From: an uncultured Sphingomonas sp.
Lineage (GTDB): Bacteria > Pseudomonadota > Alphaproteobacteria > Sphingomonadales > Sphingomonadaceae
Assembly (NCBI RefSeq): GCF_913777625.1
Contig: NZ_CAJYTI010000013.1
Span: forward strand, 1-64,000
Direction of reading: 5' to 3'
DNA: 64,000 nt
Each line of letters opens with the position of its first letter. Within the stretch, counting starts at the first letter, position 1. The notes under the pieces were generated by a model. It was not told the origin of the DNA and searched no databases. It saw only the letters and a list, made by a program, of their open reading frames with translations. Of the stretch, positions 13,154 through 63,807 are shown piece after piece. The translations under genes were made by a program, and so were the position numbers.

Positions 13154-13235
13154 GGGGGGCAGATAGAGCGCCGAGCCGCGTTTCGCCAGCCCCGGAAACG
13201 CCGTACCTGCAATATCCGATCGCACGGTCGGCACG

Positions 13236-13268
13236 AAAAAAGGGGGCGGCGACAGCGCGCACGCCCCC
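13236..13268 (-). terminator. Rho-independent terminator after the PEP-CTERM gene
   Basis: On the minus strand a 7-bp stem GGGGGCG/CGCCCCC is followed by six T residues. It lies just downstream of the PEP-CTERM gene stop and before lipA, so it insulates lipA from read-through. Confidence 0.8.
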
Positions 13269-13290
13269 TCCCAACGCTGGACGTCGCTGG

Positions 13291-13980
13291 TCAGGCAGCC
13301 GCGAAGGCTACACGCGTGCGCCGGATGCGCATCGCGCCACCCGCCAAGCCGAAGCCGCCGATCAGCGTCGCCCACGCAGCCGGTTCCGGCACGCCCGGCG
13401 GGGTCGACGCATTGATCGTGATGGCAGCGAAGGCCACCTGGTTGGCCGAACCGCCGAAATCGACCGAGTGCGCGATTCCCGAGAAGCTTACGCCAATCGG
13501 CACATACGGGCAGAAAGAGGCACCGTAGCAACCAGCGGTACCCGCCCCGTTCGGGGTCGTAGCGAGATCGATCGTGGCCAGCAGAGAACCTTGCCCGTCC
13601 AGACCGCTATACACCTTCACGAACGCGGGGTTGTTCACCGCGCTGTAGTAGAACGAAAACCCAGTATCGAACCCGCCAGCCACATTCATCGTGGCAGCGC
13701 CGCCGCCGAGGAAGAACAGCAAGTTGCCACCCGTCGGAAGCGCCGCCGAATTGCAGTTACCGGTCGGCTGGACCGAGCAAACGATAGCATTCGGCGAGAA
13801 GGTGATGCCGTAGTTGGGGCCGCCGGTCGAACCGAGACCACCCGCACCACCTGCATAATAGGAAAGAACCTGCTCTTCGGCATCCCCGTTCAGACCCGAA
13901 AAGTTCAGCGACTGCGCAGAGGCGGCGCCTGAACCGACAACGCCGGCAAACAAGCTAAGTACTGCCACTATCTTGCTCAT
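13291..13980 (-). CDS. PEP-CTERM sorted secreted protein
   Basis: The 229-residue product starts with a signal peptide ([13 protein letters not shown], cleavage near ASAQ). It ends with a PEP-CTERM tail: [15 protein letters not shown] (from about residue 197), a short hydrophobic segment and an arginine-rich end (RIRRTR). This PEPxxWA form is typical of sphingomonads and is processed by an exosortase, which is not in this window. The body is rich in Gly, Ala, Ser and Asn with a few cysteines, as in many surface or matrix proteins of this class; substrate and role are unknown. It is monocistronic: an AT-rich region lies upstream and a strong terminator downstream. Confidence 0.85.
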
Positions 13981-14226
13981 AAAACCCCCAAAAGTAAGAG
14001 TAAGAGCCTCCGTTGCCACCCTTATCTATCCGGACAAGCTCGCCGTAACGTAAACTAATTATTAATGATTCGATACGGATTCTTGGGAGAAACGAATATT
14101 TCGGCTTTCGTTTGAGGCTCGAATGCCGAACCCGGGCAGCGCCGCCGAGCGCACGGCGAACTCGTCCTGCCAACGCAGCCGCAGCGCCCCGTCGACAAGC
14201 GGCACGCCGGCCGCTACTGCCGGGCA
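13981..14226. other. AT-rich divergent intergenic region
   Basis: This 246-bp gap separates the PEP-CTERM gene from the carbonic anhydrase gene. It includes a conspicuously AT-rich stretch around 14050-14110 (for example TAATTATTAATGATT), so it probably holds promoters for both genes. I could not fix individual -35 and -10 boxes, and I see no further gene. Confidence 0.4.
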
Positions 14227-15703: not shown

Positions 15704-16720
15704 CTAACGTGCCGGCGCGATCAAGGCTGCATCGACGCGATTGGCGAGCGGCCGGCCCGCCTCAAAGTCGGCGATGCTGCCCAGCGTCGTGTCGGCGATC
15801 GCCGACAGCGCCTCCTCCGTAAGAAACGCCTGGTGGCCGGTGACCAGCACGTTCGGGAAGGTCAGCAGCCGCTGGAACTGATCGTCGGCGATGATCTCGT
15901 TCGACAGGTCCTCGAAAAACAGGTCGGCTTCCTGCTCGTACACGTCGAGCGCGACTGCGCGGATCTTGCGGGACTTCAGCCCGTCGATCAGCGCGGCGGT
16001 ATCGATCAGCGCGCCGCGACTGGTGTTGACGATCACCAGCCCGTCCCGCGCCTCGGCAATCACCCGCGCGTCGATCAGCCGATGCGTGTCCGGCGTGAGC
16101 GGACAGTGCAGCGTGACGATTTCGGCGGTGCGCAGCAGCTCCTCACGCGGCACGTAGCGGACGCCGATCGCCTCCAGCGCGGGATCGGCATGGAGGTCGC
16201 TTGCCAGCACGGTGCAGCCGAAGCCGGCCCGCAGCACCCGGGCGACCAGCGCGCCGATCTTGCCGGTGCCCACCACGCCGACGGTGCGGCCATGGAGGTT
16301 GCGGCCGATCAGCCCGTCGAGCGCGAAGTTGTTCTCCCGCACCCGCGACCAGGCACGCGGGATCTGCCGGTCGACCGCGAGCAGCAGCCCGACGGTGAAC
16401 TCCGCCACGGCATGCGGGGAATAGGCCGGCACGCGCACCACGGCGATGCCCAGCCGCTCCGCCGCCGCGAGGTCGACATTGTTGAAGCCGGCGCAGCGCA
16501 GCGCCACCAGCCGGACGCCCGCCTTGGCCAGCGCCTCAAGCACGGCTGCGCCGACCCCGTCGTTGACGAAGACGCAGACCGCCTCATGCCCCGCCGCCAG
16601 CGGGGCGGTCAGCACGTCGAGGCGGGGTTCGAGAAAGGTCAAGTCGTGGCCGAAGCGGGCATTGCCCTCGGCAAGGAAGCGGCGGTCATAGGCCTTGGTG
16701 TTGAACACCGCGACGCGCAT
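15704..16720 (-). CDS. 2-hydroxyacid dehydrogenase (D-lactate dehydrogenase-like)
   Basis: This is an NAD-dependent D-2-hydroxyacid dehydrogenase, most like fermentative D-lactate dehydrogenase LdhA, which reduces pyruvate to D-lactate. The 338-residue protein has the Rossmann motif GVVGTGKIG (about 148-156), the catalytic arginine region NTSRGALID and the C-terminal catalytic histidine in GHQAFLTEEAL. The segment VYEQEADLFFED is typical of LdhA. It sits 16 bp downstream of the ancestral end of aspS and 8 bp upstream of ppk2, all on one strand. Substrate choice is inferred from similarity only. Confidence 0.88.
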   Translation of the reverse strand: MRVAVFNTKAYDRRFLAEGNARFGHDLTFLEPRLDVLTAPLAAGHEAVCVFVNDGVGAAVLEALAKAGVRLVALRCAGFNNVDLAAAERLGIAVVRVPAYSPHAVAEFTVGLLLAVDRQIPRAWSRVRENNFALDGLIGRNLHGRTVGVVGTGKIGALVARVLRAGFGCTVLASDLHADPALEAIGVRYVPREELLRTAEIVTLHCPLTPDTHRLIDARVIAEARDGLVIVNTSRGALIDTAALIDGLKSRKIRAVALDVYEQEADLFFEDLSNEIIADDQFQRLLTFPNVLVTGHQAFLTEEALSAIADTTLGSIADFEAGRPLANRVDAALIAPAR

Positions 16721-16736
16721 GACCGCCGATCTCCGC

Positions 16737-16942
16737 TCAGCCGGCCTTGGGGCCGTCGACGCCCGGCGCCAGGCGGATGTGCAGTTCCTTGAGCTGCTTG
16801 TCGCTCACCGCGGATGGCGCGTGCATCATCAGGTCCTCGGCCTTCTGCGTCATCGGGAAGGCGATCACCTCGCGGATGTTCGGCTCGTCGGCGAGCAGCA
16901 TCACGATGCGGTCGACGCCCGGGGCCGAACCGCCGTGCGGCG
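16737..16942 (-). pseudogene. aspS: Displaced 3' end of aspS
   Basis: Read in the ancestral frame, this stretch encodes the missing C-terminus of aspartyl-tRNA synthetase: class II motif 3 ([17 protein letters not shown]), then [18 protein letters not shown] and a tail ending in [11 protein letters not shown] before a TGA at 16737-16739. It is out of frame with the body of aspS because of the 32-bp duplication just upstream. Deleting one repeat copy joins them into a single 600-codon gene (1803 bp with stop). Confidence 0.85.
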
Positions 16943-18571
16943 GTCGACGCCCGGGGCCGAACCGCCGTGCGGCGGCGCGCCGAACTTGAACGCGTTGATC
17001 ATGCCCGAGAAATTCGTGTCGACATCCGCCTGCGTATAGCCGGCGATCTCGAACGCCTTGTACATGATCTCCGGCTTGTGGTTCCGGATCGCACCCGAGG
17101 ACAGCTCAATGCCGTTGCAGACAATGTCGTACTGATAGGCGAGGATGTCGAGCGGGTCCTTGGTCTCCAGCGCCGCCAGCTCGCCCTGCGGCATCGAGAA
17201 GGGGTTGTGGCTGAAATCGACCTTCTTCGCGTCCTCGTCATATTCGAACATCGGGAAGTCGACGATCCAGCAGAACTCGAAGCGCTTCTTGTCGATCAGC
17301 TCCAGCTGCTCAGCTACACGGGTGCGCGCCAGGCCGGCGAGCTTGGCCGCCTGCGCTTCCTTGCCGGCGGCGAAGAAGATGCCGTCGTTCGGACCCAGGC
17401 CCATCGCTTCCGCAATCGCCTTCATGCCGTCCTGGCCATGGTTGTTGGCGATCGGGCCGCCGAACACGCCGTCCTTCTGCGTCGCATAGCCGAGGCCCGG
17501 GAAACCTTCGCTCTGCGCCCAGCTGTTCATGTCATCGAAGAACTTGCGGCTCTTCTCATGCGTGCCCGGCGCCGGGATCGCGCGGACGACGTCGCCGCCG
17601 TCGACGATCGAGGCGAAGCGGCCGAAGCCCGAGCCCTTGAAGAAGTCCGACACGTCGGTGATGACGAGCGGGTTGCGCAGGTCCGGCTTGTCGTTGCCGT
17701 ATTTGAGCATCGATTCGCGGTACGGGATGCGCTTGAACGGCAACGCGCTGACGGTGCGGCCCATGCCCTCCCAGTCGGCGAACTCCTCGAACACGCCGTG
17801 GAGCACCGGCTCGATCGCGGCGAACACGTCGTCCTGGGTGACGAAGCTCATCTCGAAGTCGAGCTGGTAGAATTCGCCCGGCGAACGATCGGCGCGCGCG
17901 TCCTCGTCGCGGAAGCAGGGGGCGATCTGGAAATAGCGGTCGAAGCCGGCGACCATCAGCAGCTGCTTGAACATCTGCGGTGCCTGCGGGAGCGCGTAGA
18001 ACTTGCCCGGGTGGACGCGGCTGGGGACGAGATAGTCGCGCGCGCCCTCGGGGCTCGACGCGGTGAGGATCGGCGTCTGGAACTCGGTGAAGCCCTGGTC
18101 GATCATCCGGCGGCGCAGCGACGCAATCACGTTCGAGCGCAGCAGGATGTTCTTGTGGACCTTCTCGCGGCGGAGATCGAGATAGCGGTTCCGCAGGCGG
18201 ATCTCTTCCGGATACTCCTGCTCGCCGAACACCGGCATCGGCAGGTCGGCAGCGGCGGACTGGACGGTCACTTCCGCCGCGCGGACCTCGATCTCGCCGG
18301 TCGGCAGGTTCGGGTTCACCACGCTGGCGTCGCGGGCGACGACCGTGCCGGTGACGGTGATCACCGATTCGGAGCGCAGCGACTCGATCGCCTCGAACGC
18401 CGGGCCGCTCGCGTCGGTGACGATCTGGGTGATGCCGTAATGGTCGCGCAGGTCGACGAACACCAGGTCGCCATGGTCGCGCTTGCGGTGCACCCAGCCC
18501 GACAGGCGGACGGTTTGCCCGACGTCCGCGGAGCGGAGCTGGGCGCAGGTGTGCGTGCGATAGGCGTGCAT
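16901..18571 (-). CDS. aspS: Aspartyl-tRNA synthetase, frameshifted near the 3' end
   Basis: AspS charges tRNA-Asp (or tRNA-Asp and tRNA-Asn) with aspartate. Residues 1 to about 544 are a normal bacterial AspRS: N-terminal OB-fold ([20 protein letters not shown]), a catalytic core with class II motif 2 ([19 protein letters not shown]) and the bacterial insertion domain. A perfect 32-bp tandem repeat at 16911-16974 shifts the frame right after APGVDR, so the protein as written ends in an unrelated tail ([12 protein letters not shown]) at 556 residues and loses the rest of motif 3 and the C-terminus. As the enzyme is essential, an assembly or sequencing artefact, or a second aspS elsewhere, should be considered. 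The ATG at MHAYRTH is the family start. Confidence 0.93.
16911..16974. repeat. Perfect 32-bp tandem duplication inside aspS
   Basis: Two identical, directly adjacent 32-bp copies (16911-16942 and 16943-16974), each starting GTCGACGCCCGGGGCCGAAC. Since 32 is not a multiple of three, the second copy shifts the aspS frame. The unit contains a self-complementary CCGCC-GTGC-GGCGG segment at its junction, which could promote slippage in vivo or an error in sequencing. Confidence 0.97.
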
Positions 18572-18717
18572 GATGCGGTTCTTCTCACCTTGGCGTCTTC
18601 CCGCCACGCGTGGCGGTGCCGGAACGGGCCGGCGCGACGATATTGAAACACTATGACCGCGCGCATTCCGGTCACACCCCACTTTTGTCAACCCGAAGAC
18701 CGGTATATGGGCATCAG

Positions 18718-19893
18718 ATGCACATTCATGGTCTGATCGAAGACAGCGTCACCCTCGCCGATCTCTGCAAACGCCTCGCGCAGTCCGACTTCATCACGGT
18801 CGACACCGAGTTCATGCGCGAAAACAGCTACTGGCCCGAGCTCTGCCTCATCCAGGTGGCCAACGACAAGGAGGCCGCGGCGATCGACCCCAAGGCCCCG
18901 GACCTCGACATGGGCCCCCTGCTCGATCTGCTGGTCGACAATGAGGACGTGCTCAAGGTCTTCCACGCCGGCGGCCAGGACATCGAGATCGTCTACAACC
19001 TCACGGGCAAGACGCCGCACCCGATGTTCGATACCCAGGTCGCCGCGATGGCGCTCGGCCAGGGCGAGCAGATCGGCTATTCCAACCTCGTCGACACCTA
19101 TCTCGGCATCGTCGTCGACAAGGGCGCCCGCTTCACCGACTGGGCACGCCGCCCGCTCGACAAGCGCCAGATCGACTATGCCATCGCGGACGTGACCCAC
19201 CTCTCCAAGATCTTCCCCAAGATGCTGGAAAAGCTGCGCAAGTCCGGCCGCGGCGTGTGGCTCGACCAGGAGATGGAGCGGATCTCGGACCCCGAGAATT
19301 ATCGCAACGATCCCGACCAGGTGTGGCAGCGCGTCCGCATCAACAGCCGCAAGCCCGAGGTGCTCGGCCGCCTCAAGGCGCTGGCCCGCTGGCGCGAGCT
19401 GGAAGCGCAGGGCAAGGATCTGCCGCGCGGCCGTATCGTCAAGGACGAGACGCTGGCCGACATTGCCGCCAACCCACCGCGCAAGCAGGCCGATCTCGCC
19501 AAGGTACGCGGGCTCTCCGCCGCCTGGGCGGGCAACGACATCGGCGGGCGGATGATGGCCGCGATCGCCGACTCGAAGCCGATGCCGGCCGACGAGATGC
19601 CCGGCCGAGAGGAGCGCAAGCCTTCGCTCGGCAAGGACGGCGCGCTCGTCGCCGACCTGCTCAAGCTGCTGCTCAAGATCCGCGCCAAGGAGGTGAACGT
19701 CGCCCCGCGCCTGCTCGCCCGCTCCGAAGATCTCGAGGCGCTCGCCGCCGGGGTCCGCAAGGACCTGCCGATCCTCGAAGGCTGGCGCTACGAACAGTTC
19801 GGCCGCGACGCGCTGGCGCTGGTCGAGGGGCAACTCGGCTTTGCGGTACGCAACGGCAAGCTCAAGATGACCCGCACGGAAGAACCCGCATGA
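18718..19893 (+). CDS. rnd: Ribonuclease D
   Basis: RNase D is a 3'-5' exoribonuclease that trims tRNA precursors and other small RNAs. The 391-residue protein has the DEDDy exonuclease residues D29 and E31 ([10 protein letters not shown]), D88 (HAGGQDIE) and Y154/D158 ([10 protein letters not shown]), followed by an HRDC domain (about 210-290) and a C-terminal helical region. The ATG of [10 protein letters not shown] matches the family start. The gene is divergent from aspS, and its stop overlaps the start of a small lipoprotein gene by 4 bp (ATGA). Confidence 0.95.
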
Positions 19894-25155: not shown

Positions 25156-27984
25156 CTACCCCAACCGCGCCAGCGCCGCCGACAGCCGCTCAGCTTCGGC
25201 CGCCTTCTCGGCATGGTCCGCGCGGGCCTTCTCGACCGCCTCGGGCTTGGCCCGCTCGACGAAGCTCGGATTGCCGAGCCGGCCGGCAAGGCCGTCGCGC
25301 TCCTTCTCGGCCGCCGCGATCGCCTTGGTCAGGCGGGCGCGCTCGGCCTCGAGGTCGATGATGCCTTCGAGCGGTACCACGAAGGTCGCTTCATCGACCA
25401 CGATCTGAATAGCGCCGCCTGCAGGCGGTGTTTGATCAAACACATCTTGCAGGCGAGCCAGCTTACGAAGCGCCGTGTAGAAGCTGTTGATCCGCCGTTG
25501 AGTTTCAGCATCACCACCCCGAACATATGCGGTGAGCATTACGCCAGGCCCAATACCCAGCTCGTTCTTAGCGGCACGCACCTTACTCGTGACATCGATC
25601 AGCCAATCGATATCCGCAGCTGCTTCTGGATAGATATTTGATGCATCTGTACGCGGCCAATCCGCGACGATCAGATTGCGGCTACGGGGCCCCATCGCAC
25701 CCCAAAGCTCTTCCGTGATGAAAGGCATGAAGGGATGTAGCATAACGAGGATCTGATCGAGCGCCCATGCTGCAACAGCCCGCGTTTCTTCTCCCATCCA
25801 CGGGTAAACCTGGGCATCCTCGTTGAGCACCGGCTTGATCAGCTCGAGATACCAGTCGCAGAAGCGGCTCCAGACGAACTGGTAGATCGCGTTCGCCGCC
25901 TCGTCGAAGCGCAGGTCGGCCAGCGCCAGGTCCAGCGCCTGCACCGTCGCGATGGTTTCCGCAATGATCCAGCGGTTTACCGCGAGTTCCGCAGTCGGCG
26001 CCTCAAGATGCTTGCTGGCGGCAATGCCGTTCGCCTGGCAGAAGCGCGCGGCGTTCCACAGCTTGGTCGCGAAGTTGCGATAGCCCTCGAGCCGCTTCTC
26101 ATCCATTTTGATGTCGCGGCCCTGGCTCTCCATCGCCGCCATGAAGAAGCGCAGCGCGTCGGCGCCGTACTTGTCGATCATCCCCAGCGGATCGACCGTG
26201 TTGCCCTTGGACTTGGACATCTTCTGGCCGTCCGCTGCACGAACGAGACCGTGTAGATACAAGGTCTTAAACGGCACCTCTTTCATGAAGTGCAAGCCCT
26301 GCATCATCATCCGCGCATCCCAGAAGAACAGGATGTCGAAGCCGGAAATGAGCACATCGTTCGAATAGCGCCCGCCGAGCGTCGGGTCGCTGTTCTCCGG
26401 CCAGCCCAGCGTCGCAAACGGCCACAGTGCCGAGGAGAACCAGGTGTCGAGCACATCAGTTTCCCGCCAATACGGGATCTGGAGATAGCCGTCCTTTTCC
26501 AATTTCGCGGCCGCGATCCCGCTGAACGTTGGCTCTACCTCGTATAGATTCGATTGGTCGACGCCGTAATATTCTTCCATCTGAGCAAGCGCTTCTTCAC
26601 GCGTCTCAGCGACGAAAACCTTGTACTCAGCCTTTTTCCCGAGCTGTAAGCTGATCTCAGTGTCACTCTTAGCGATCGGACCGAACCACGCCGGGATCCG
26701 GTGGCCCCACCAGAGCTGGCGGCTGACGCACCAGGGCTGGATGTTCTCCATCCAGTTGAAATAGGTCTTTTCCCAGCTCTTCGGCACGATCCTGGTCGCG
26801 CCCGAACGCACCGCCTCGATCGCCGGCTTGGCGAGGGTGGCGGCGTCGACATACCATTGGTCGGTCAGCCAGGGCTCGATCACCTGGCCCGAACGGTCGC
26901 CATAGGGCGTCTGGATCGTGCGCGGCTCGGCGTCGTGCTCGGCGCCTTCCTTGTCGACGAACGGCACGAGGAAGCCCTCGTCCTTCAGCCGTGCGACGAT
27001 CGCCTTGCGCGCCTCGAAGCGGTCGAGCCCGATCAGCTCGGCCGGCACCAGCCCGTCCTGCGTTTGGCAGATCGCCGCCTTGGCATCGAGCATGTTGAGC
27101 ATCTCGCCGGCCTTGATCCCGGCGCGAACACCCACCTCGAAGTCGTTGAAATCATGCCCCGGCGTGATCTTCACCGCGCCCGAACCGAGTTCCGGATCGG
27201 CATGCTCGTCGCCGACGATCGGGATCAGGCGGCCGGTGATGGGCAGGCGCACCTGCTTGCCGATCAGCGCCTTGTAGCGCTCGTCTTCCGGATGCACCGC
27301 GACCGCCATGTCGGCCAGCATCGTCTCGGGCCGCGTCGTCGCGACCTGGATGAAGCCCGAGCCGTCCGCCAACGGATAGCGCAGGTGCCAGAAATTGCCG
27401 CGGACTTCCTTGGTCTCGACCTCGAGGTCCGAGATCGCGGTGCCGAGGCCCGGATCCCAGTTCACCAGCCTTTTGTCGCGATACAGCAGCCCCTGGCGGT
27501 AGAGCTCGACGAACACCTTGAGGACGGCCTTGGAAAAGCCCTCGTCCATGGTGAAGCGCTCATTGGCCCAGTCCATCGAGCAGCCGAGCCGGCGCAACTG
27601 GCGGGTGATCTGCCCGCCACTCTCCGCCTTCCATTCCCAGACCTTGTCGACGAACGCCTCGCGGGTGAAGTCGGTGCGCTTCTGCCCGGCGGCGTTGAGC
27701 TGGCGCTCGACCACCATCTGCGTCGCGATGCCGGCGTGATCGGTGCCGACCACCCAGCGCGCGTCCTTGCCCTTCAGCCGCGCATGGCGGACGAGGATGT
27801 CCTGCAGCGTGTTGTCGAGCGCGTGGCCGATGTGCAGGCTGCCCGTCACGTTGGGCGGCGGGTTGACGATCGTCCAGGGCTCGGCGCCCTGGCGCTCGGG
27901 GCGGAACAGGCCTTCGTCTTCCCAATGGGCGTACCAGCGGGATTCGATGTCGGCGGGGTCGAAGGTCTTGGGGAGTTCGGTCAT
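25156..27984 (-). CDS. valS: Valyl-tRNA synthetase
   Basis: ValS charges tRNA-Val and edits mischarged threonine. The 942-residue class I synthetase has the HIGH signature (HIGH at 51-54, after PPPNVTGSL), the CP1 editing domain, the KMSKS loop (588-592), an anticodon-binding helical domain and a C-terminal coiled coil ([18 protein letters not shown] onward). Length is normal. Two internal stretches, about 25407-25815 and 26230-26680, are visibly poorer in G+C and use codons rare elsewhere in the gene, while the protein stays intact; this suggests allelic recombination. The gene lies 80 bp downstream of a response regulator gene. Confidence 0.97.
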
Positions 27985-61986: not shown

Positions 61987-63807
61987 ATGCGTACCACCCG
62001 TCGCGACGTGCTGCTCGGATCGAGCGCCCTGTTGGCCACCGGTGCGGCGGCGCGCCCAGCGCTTGCCGCCGTGCCCGCCGCCGAAGCCCAGGCGCAAGCA
62101 CTGATCGATCGCACGGCCGAGGCGCTGCTCGTCCTCAACCCCGAAGGCGCAACCGGCCTCGGCATCGACAAGGGGGCGCGTGCCGGCCTCAAGCACCGGC
62201 TGGGCGACCGCACGCCTGCGGGTGTCGCCAAGATGGCGGCGCATCTGAAGGCCACGCTCGCCGAGATCGACCAGATCGACGTCCATGCCGTCAGCCCCGA
62301 GATGCGCGTCCATCTCGACGTAATCCAGACCGCCTATGCCAACGGGCTGAAGGGCATATCCTTCCCCTATGGCGACGTCGCGGTCGGCAGCTGGCGCAAC
62401 ACGCCGTACGTCGTGATCCAGAATGTCGGCGCCTATATCGACGTGCCCAAGATGCTCGACAGCGATCACCAGATCGAGACGCGCGACGATGCCGATGCCT
62501 ATCTCGATCGGCTCCAGGCCTATGCCGGCGCACTCGACGGCGAGACCGTGCGGCTGCAGCAGGCAGCGAGCGTCGGCGTGATCGCGCCGGACTTCCTGCT
62601 CGACAAGTGCCTGAAGCAGATCCACCTCGCCCGCAGCGGCGATCCGGCGACCTGGGACGTCGTGACCTCGCTCGCCAAGCGGACCACCAGCATGCCGGGC
62701 GGATACGAGGCGCGCGCGGCCAAGATCGCCGCCGAGCAGATCGCCCCGGCGCTCGATCGCCAGATCGCCGAGCTCGAAAAGCAACGCACCCGCGCCACCT
62801 CCGACGCCGGCGTGTGGAAGTTCAAGGACGGCGACGCCTATTATGCCTGGGCGCTGAGCGCCGGCACCACCACGACCATGTCGCCCGATGAAGTCCATGC
62901 GATGGGCAAGGCGCAGCTCGCCGAACTGCAGGCCGAGATGGACACGATCCTCAAGACGCTCGGCTATACGCAGGGCTCGGTCGGCGCACGCATGCGCGGA
63001 CTCGCCACCGACAAGCGCTTCGCCTTTCCGGACAACGATGCCGGCCGCGCCGAGATCATCCAGATCCTCCAGCATAGCATCGACGACATGCGCGGCCGGA
63101 TGCCGCAGGCGTTCCACACGCTCGTCCCCGGCAATGTCGAGGTGAAGCGCATCCCGATCGTCGAGGAAGCCGGTGCTGCCGGCGCCTATGGCGGCCCCGG
63201 CACGATCGACGGCAAGGTGCCCGGGCGCCTCTGGGTCAATCTGCGCTCGACGGGCATCTGGACGCGGTTCAGCCTGCCCGACCTCGCCTATCACGAGGCA
63301 ATCCCCGGCCATGCCTGGCAGGGCGAATATACCTTCAAGATGCCGCTGATCCGTTCGCTCCTCCAGTTCAACGCCTATTCGGAAGGCTGGGCGCTCTATG
63401 CCGAGCAGCTGGGCGACGAGCTGGGCGTCTATGCCGAGAACCCGGCGGCGAAGCTGGGCTATCTCCAGTCGCTGGGCTTCCGCGCCTGCCGGCTAGTGGT
63501 CGACAGCGGGCTGCATGCCAAGCGCTGGACGCGCGAGCAGGCGATCCGCTGGTTCGTCGAAGCCAACGGCTCGTCGGAGGACGAGGTGCAGGGCGAGGTC
63601 GACCGCTATTGCTCGTGGCCGGGCCAGGCCTGCGGCTACAAGGTGGGCCACACCGCGATCAACCGGCTGCGGACCAAGGCGAAGGGCGAACTCGGCGCCA
63701 AGTTCGACTTCCGCGCCTTCAACGATGCGGTGCTGCTCGGCGGCAATGTGCCGATGACCGTGCTCGGCCATGTGATCGACCGCCACATCGCGCAGCGGAA
63801 GGGGTAA
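61987..63807 (+). CDS. DUF885 metallopeptidase-like protein with Tat signal
   Basis: The 606-residue protein starts with a twin-arginine signal (TTRRDVLLGSSALLATG, cleavage near ALAA) and is a DUF885 protein, predicted zinc-dependent peptidase-like, with H436-E437-AIPG-H442 in YHEAIPGHAWQ plus the downstream YSEGWALYAEQL that provides the second zinc-ligand glutamate. The fold and motif pattern suggest exported activity, but the substrate is not known. It begins 21 bp after nfeD; whether it shares the transcript is unclear. Confidence 0.9.
   Translation: MRTTRRDVLLGSSALLATGAAARPALAAVPAAEAQAQALIDRTAEALLVLNPEGATGLGIDKGARAGLKHRLGDRTPAGVAKMAAHLKATLAEIDQIDVHAVSPEMRVHLDVIQTAYANGLKGISFPYGDVAVGSWRNTPYVVIQNVGAYIDVPKMLDSDHQIETRDDADAYLDRLQAYAGALDGETVRLQQAASVGVIAPDFLLDKCLKQIHLARSGDPATWDVVTSLAKRTTSMPGGYEARAAKIAAEQIAPALDRQIAELEKQRTRATSDAGVWKFKDGDAYYAWALSAGTTTTMSPDEVHAMGKAQLAELQAEMDTILKTLGYTQGSVGARMRGLATDKRFAFPDNDAGRAEIIQILQHSIDDMRGRMPQAFHTLVPGNVEVKRIPIVEEAGAAGAYGGPGTIDGKVPGRLWVNLRSTGIWTRFSLPDLAYHEAIPGHAWQGEYTFKMPLIRSLLQFNAYSEGWALYAEQLGDELGVYAENPAAKLGYLQSLGFRACRLVVDSGLHAKRWTREQAIRWFVEANGSSEDEVQGEVDRYCSWPGQACGYKVGHTAINRLRTKAKGELGAKFDFRAFNDAVLLGGNVPMTVLGHVIDRHIAQRKG

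Follow-up and report, generated by a model that had tools for sequence, protein, structure and literature searches.

How is aspS, the only gene for aspartyl-tRNA synthetase (AspRS) detected in the genome of an uncultured Sphingomonas sp., to be read when a short tandem duplication interrupts its frame as deposited? The gene lies in a window of 64,000 nucleotides, the whole stretch of DNA that was analysed (contig NZ_CAJYTI010000013.1 of assembly GCF_913777625.1). As written, aspS runs on the reverse strand from an ATG at 18571 to a premature TGA at 16903-16901 (feature 16901..18571), and its product has 556 residues, namely 544 normal residues followed by 12 that are out of frame. The remainder lies in another frame of the same strand (16737..16943), which encodes the motif-3 repeat and the C-terminus up to the normal stop at 16739-16737. 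The AspRS model TIGR00459 matches the 5' frame with 551.7 bits over model positions 3-540, above its curated cut-off of 373.85, and the second frame with 67.2 bits over model positions 526-582 (at 16773-16943). When one repeat copy is left out, aspS has 600 codons and ends at 16739-16737; the frame, interrupted as written, then continues across motif 3 as far as the C-terminus. The original prediction had claimed exactly such a 600-codon frame, and script translation bears out both the frame and the codon count. Its further claim, that the rest of motif 3 and the C-terminus are lost, can be made more precise: the motif-3 loop is kept up to residue 544, the arginine of GVDR (which we take to be the motif's name in AspRS motif 3), and this is the last normal residue, leaving the protein as written without its last 56 residues. 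A protein broken at this point is likely to be inactive. The frames on either side are intact in the list of open reading frames. These are a downstream neighbor on the reverse strand (15704..16720), presumably a D-2-hydroxyacid dehydrogenase, and a divergent upstream neighbor on the forward strand (18610..19893), presumably a ribonuclease D. Elsewhere in the window, a reverse-strand frame at 13291-14019 ends in a PEP-CTERM-like tail, an assignment of the motif that we assume here; the frame lies within a stretch of about 1 kb (13198-14226) where the Sphingomonas azotifigens locus L003 has just some 85 bases between matching DNA on either side.

The interruption is a perfect 32-bp tandem duplication, as first described, with the positions originally given (16911-16974) representing another register of the repeat at 16908-16975. 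Tandem Repeats Finder reports a period of 32, 2.1 copies, and 100% matches across 16908-16975, and a script comparison finds the same 32 bases at 16908..16939 (the first copy in forward order) and at 16940..16971 (the second copy, also delimited by Tandem Repeats Finder); no strand is assigned to either unit. The period is carried on for four bases (16972-16975), and the short repeat GCGG stands at each end of the unit. The whole comprises 68 bases with a 36-base exact match at an offset of 32, which is far beyond chance. It is also rare in its own genome. In 1,229,420 bases (the window plus 59 further stretches, or 29% of the 4,173,118 bases of the assembly), only two perfect tandem repeats with periods of 15-200 were found, the aspS repeat and a 15-mer, such that at periods of 16-200 the aspS repeat is the sole one in the 1.229 Mb scanned; a looser scan of the same sample adds a few repeats with units of 12-13 bases. 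A control scan of 80 relatives' loci (597,457 bases) returned two perfect tandem repeats, and none were found in 50 further relatives' loci. A special hairpin at the GC-rich repeat was considered and set aside, as 19 and 30 of 200 shuffles fold equally well and the folding is thus ordinary for the composition. An imperfect 33-base tandem repeat (2.2 copies, 83% match) is present at 63386-63459 of the window.

Whether a cell could tolerate the break depends on what else could charge its tRNAs. In the organism's own assembly of 4,173,118 bases, this locus is the only match to TIGR00459 and to the archaeal-type model TIGR00458; each of the two models gives matches in 14 of 14 control genomes. A search for asparaginyl-tRNA synthetase (AsnRS) with TIGR00457 gave no match above the cut-off of 342.6 in this genome, the sole match being aspS itself at 95 bits. 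GatB (516.4 bits) and GatA (549.1 bits) were both found above cut-off. The check for an indirect Asn-tRNA pathway proposed in the original prediction, run for GatA, GatB, and AsnRS, found GatB and GatA present and AsnRS absent at cut-off. In the indirect pathway, Asn-tRNA is produced from Asp-tRNA(Asn). Because GatB and GatA are present and no AsnRS is above cut-off, one AspRS would be expected to provide for Asp-tRNA and Asn-tRNA alike. This gene content resembles that of systems combining a non-discriminating AspRS with GatCAB. The PDB entry 4wj3 (Aspartate--tRNA(Asp/Asn) ligase), a non-discriminating AspRS with GatCAB, matches the close relative P0001 over residues 2-591 of 600; P0001 itself and the one-copy reading differ at 10 of their 600 residues. 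Unlike an enzyme of the 4wj3 type, however, the AspRS as written lacks its last 56 residues. We infer that aspS is essential in this organism, although essentiality data for the aspS of a close relative were not found in the papers searched, among them an alphaproteobacterial Tn-seq study (PMC10746277). Since this AspRS is the sole one detected and is expected to serve two amino acids, a fixed null allele is hard to accept.

One way around this difficulty would be a real break that is covered by a second AspRS missing from the assembly and carried, for instance, by a plasmid or an unassembled repeat. A draft assembly in 41 contigs leaves room for such a gene, but neither AspRS model finds a second match in it, and a copy relieved of its function should decay, yet this one is undecayed (see below). 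Nor is a second copy customary in the genus. An AspRS match was found in 291 of 295 genus genomes, above cut-off in 286. At least 11 of the 295 genomes, the present one included, have more than one aspS stretch, with genomes beyond those whose match positions are listed judged by E-values only. Among the ten others inspected, G266 is the only one with two full copies, which lie on separate contigs of an assembly with a contamination value of 7. We regard a hidden second AspRS as the least probable of the explanations weighed here. The original prediction had offered a second aspS, alongside an assembly error and a mixture or phase-variable tract, as a way out of the apparent contradiction; in the 4.17-Mb assembly searched with two AspRS models, no such gene appears beyond this locus.

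The sequence behind the break provides a further line of evidence. The nearest named locus is that of S. azotifigens NBRC 15497, whose AspRS is 99% identical over residues 1-544 and whose DNA aligns at 91.8% over 5,258 positions; the window thus derives from a Sphingomonas-like bacterium, probably a sister species. In the DNA alignment with L003, the window has 32 extra bases at the repeat site. The L003 AspRS also has 600 codons and differs from the one-copy reading at seven residues. Relative to L003, there are 52 silent and 7 amino-acid changes in residues 1-544, and 5 silent changes and no amino-acid change in residues 545-600, which lie behind the break. Across 80 loci, mean identity to L003 is 81% for residues 545-576, 78% for residues 121-544, and 67% for residues 1-120, with residues 577-600 variable (42%). 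The part of AspRS behind the break thus appears undecayed by these comparisons, and the break must therefore be very recent or absent from the cells.

In the relatives, an all-frame motif scan found one copy of motif 3 in 109 of 109 loci (two sets of 80 and 29, with some species in both), with no tract at the site; all of these loci belong to species other than the one studied here. In contrast, the four loci from the organism's own genome that cover the repeat have two motif-3 copies in different frames. A repeat that is shared with relatives or ancestral was rejected on the basis of the single copy in all loci examined. The absence of the extra copy from relatives fits an artefact, but a duplication that is real and recent would look the same. 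In 78 of the 80 loci, the frame runs at least 40 residues past the motif-3 arginine; in the remaining two (L038 and L047) it ends close behind. Similarly, the best 120 of 8000 scored relatives from the protein database are 592-644 residues long, and none is listed as shortened in the way of the AspRS here, these relatives being representatives of 90% identity clusters in which shortened members could be hidden.

A duplication that is real and fixed could also be compatible with life if the cell were to make a working AspRS across it, and the sequence holds two features that might serve. First, C CCG GGC stands in the first copy in frame as a slippery heptamer of the form X XXY YYZ. Upstream, the C-terminal frame stays open across the repeat and, therefore, a -1 slip at this site would give a continuous protein, a full-length AspRS with 11 extra residues that repeat the motif-3 loop (32 + 1 bases, by hand calculation). 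Second, the premature TGA shares bases with a GTG (16904-16902) and an ATG (16901-16899), both of which are in the reading frame of the missing C-terminus. This GTGATG (16899..16904, reverse strand) is a possible re-initiation point, from which a two-chain AspRS would result. However, conserved codons account for both signals, which would be present even without a function, and CCCGGGC recurs in this frame at two other places in the gene, nucleotides 560 and 1070 in zero-based numbering. Slippery sites of the GC type are weak. Moreover, none of the 109 relatives' loci has a second copy, and residues 525-544, at 87% mean identity to L003 in the 80 loci versus 78% for residues 121-544, belong to a conserved part of the enzyme. 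Frameshifting or re-initiation that yields a working AspRS is therefore considered very unlikely. A tRNA that might suppress the frameshift was rejected as well. The call made by ARAGORN on the forward strand at 27815-27900 (tRNA-???, four-base anticodon) is a false positive, because it is antisense to an intact frame of 942 residues that encloses it (25156-27984, which we take to be valS), has no Rfam match, and matches in 35 of 41 genomes (its own included), a spread like that of ordinary coding DNA.

A second possibility is that the duplication arose by slippage in part of the culture and that the assembler wrote the longer allele. Such an allele would be lethal or slow on its own; residual enzyme or another copy of the chromosome would carry it through a few generations, until precise deletion removed it again. 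A 32-bp unit with a four-base repeat at its ends is what a simple slippage product would look like, and spontaneous, potentially revertible tandem duplications within genes are described as silencing capsule genes in pneumococci (PMC4022640, which cites Waite et al. 2001, 2003). The likeness is that a short duplication within a gene acts as an off switch that can, in principle, be reverted exactly; the difference is that the published cases concern capsule genes, which are dispensable in culture, whereas AspRS is expected not to be (PMC4022640). In addition, a consensus sequence requires many molecules, and a null allele of an essential gene should not reach that share of a population. All 109 relatives' loci, which are from other species, have a single copy and give no sign of a maintained switch, and the mixture or phase-variable tract of the original prediction accordingly does not look like one. 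Although it ranks second after an artefact, an allele carried transiently by a subpopulation is an unlikely source of the extra copy.

The reading that is favored here, and the one of the three original ways out that gains support, is that the second 32-base copy is most likely an artefact of sequencing or assembly and is predicted to be absent from living cells. Two read or contig ends might have been joined on the four-base GCGG instead of on the full 36-base overlap or, alternatively, the polymerase might have slipped on the GC-rich stretch during library preparation; either event would leave precisely two copies and four further bases. It should be noted that the four-base repeat at the unit ends fits a real slippage duplication equally well. 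Short-read assemblers collapse short repeats more often than they expand them. The assembly is 99.99% complete in 41 contigs, with the repeat 16.9 kb inside a contig of 69,420 bases. A generally poor assembly was rejected as the cause: no other duplication of this size was found in 29% of the genome and, therefore, the assembly is not generally error-rich.

Breaks in aspS do occur in other assemblies of the genus. Among the ten other genomes with more than one aspS stretch, aspS is split across two contigs in four (G259, G262, G268, and G193) and broken inside one contig in another four (G263, G250, G015, and G168), and one (G313) has a full aspS along with a weak extra stretch; none of the aspS loci of these ten genomes has a perfect tandem repeat. 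In G263, one base is missing in motif 3 of aspS, and in G015 about 35 bases are missing just upstream of motif 3. These two breaks (L136 on G263:C1 and L137 on G015:C14), at or near motif 3, perhaps mark a spot that is hard to sequence, with two cases only. At a further locus (L143 on G168:C65), an unrelated stretch of about 200 bases replaces part of aspS, and one base is missing upstream. Three of the four genomes with breaks inside a contig are 80-88% complete, as would be expected of error-rich assemblies, and G168 is 96% complete. The 99.99% completeness of the present assembly, unlike those of 80-88%, counts somewhat against a simple error.

Published cases point in both directions. A real 57-bp tandem duplication in another bacterium was reported from HiFi re-sequencing (PMC12817950). 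Conversely, in the first genome sequence of Vibrio fischeri ES114, sequence at 14 loci was falsely expanded in tandem by 318-1264 bp (Mandel et al. 2008, PMC2330054), and that version also split genes that are essential in other bacteria, including thrS, which was corrected as a frameshift. These errors are a close precedent for an artefact in aspS: there, too, neighboring sequence was given in tandem, and genes essential in other bacteria, a tRNA synthetase gene among them, seemed broken until re-sequencing. The analogy has its limits, as even the smallest ES114 expansion, of 318 bp, is ten times the size of the perfect 32-bp unit here, and the expansions typically have a few unique bases at their ends; furthermore, the thrS error was a frameshift and not an expansion, unlike the tandem copy in aspS (PMC2330054). 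A literature search returned no report that joins AspRS, a tandem duplication, and a frameshift in bacteria.

The consequences differ with the reading. If the extra copy is an artefact, it is a reminder that an essential gene may stand falsely broken in the public genome of a species, and that analyses of essentiality and of pathways that draw on such a genome are misled. If the duplication is real, the organism would offer a rare natural test of how cells survive a frame break in their sole AspRS. Finally, if the cell made a working enzyme across the break, a class II tRNA synthetase would be split or extended within its catalytic motif.
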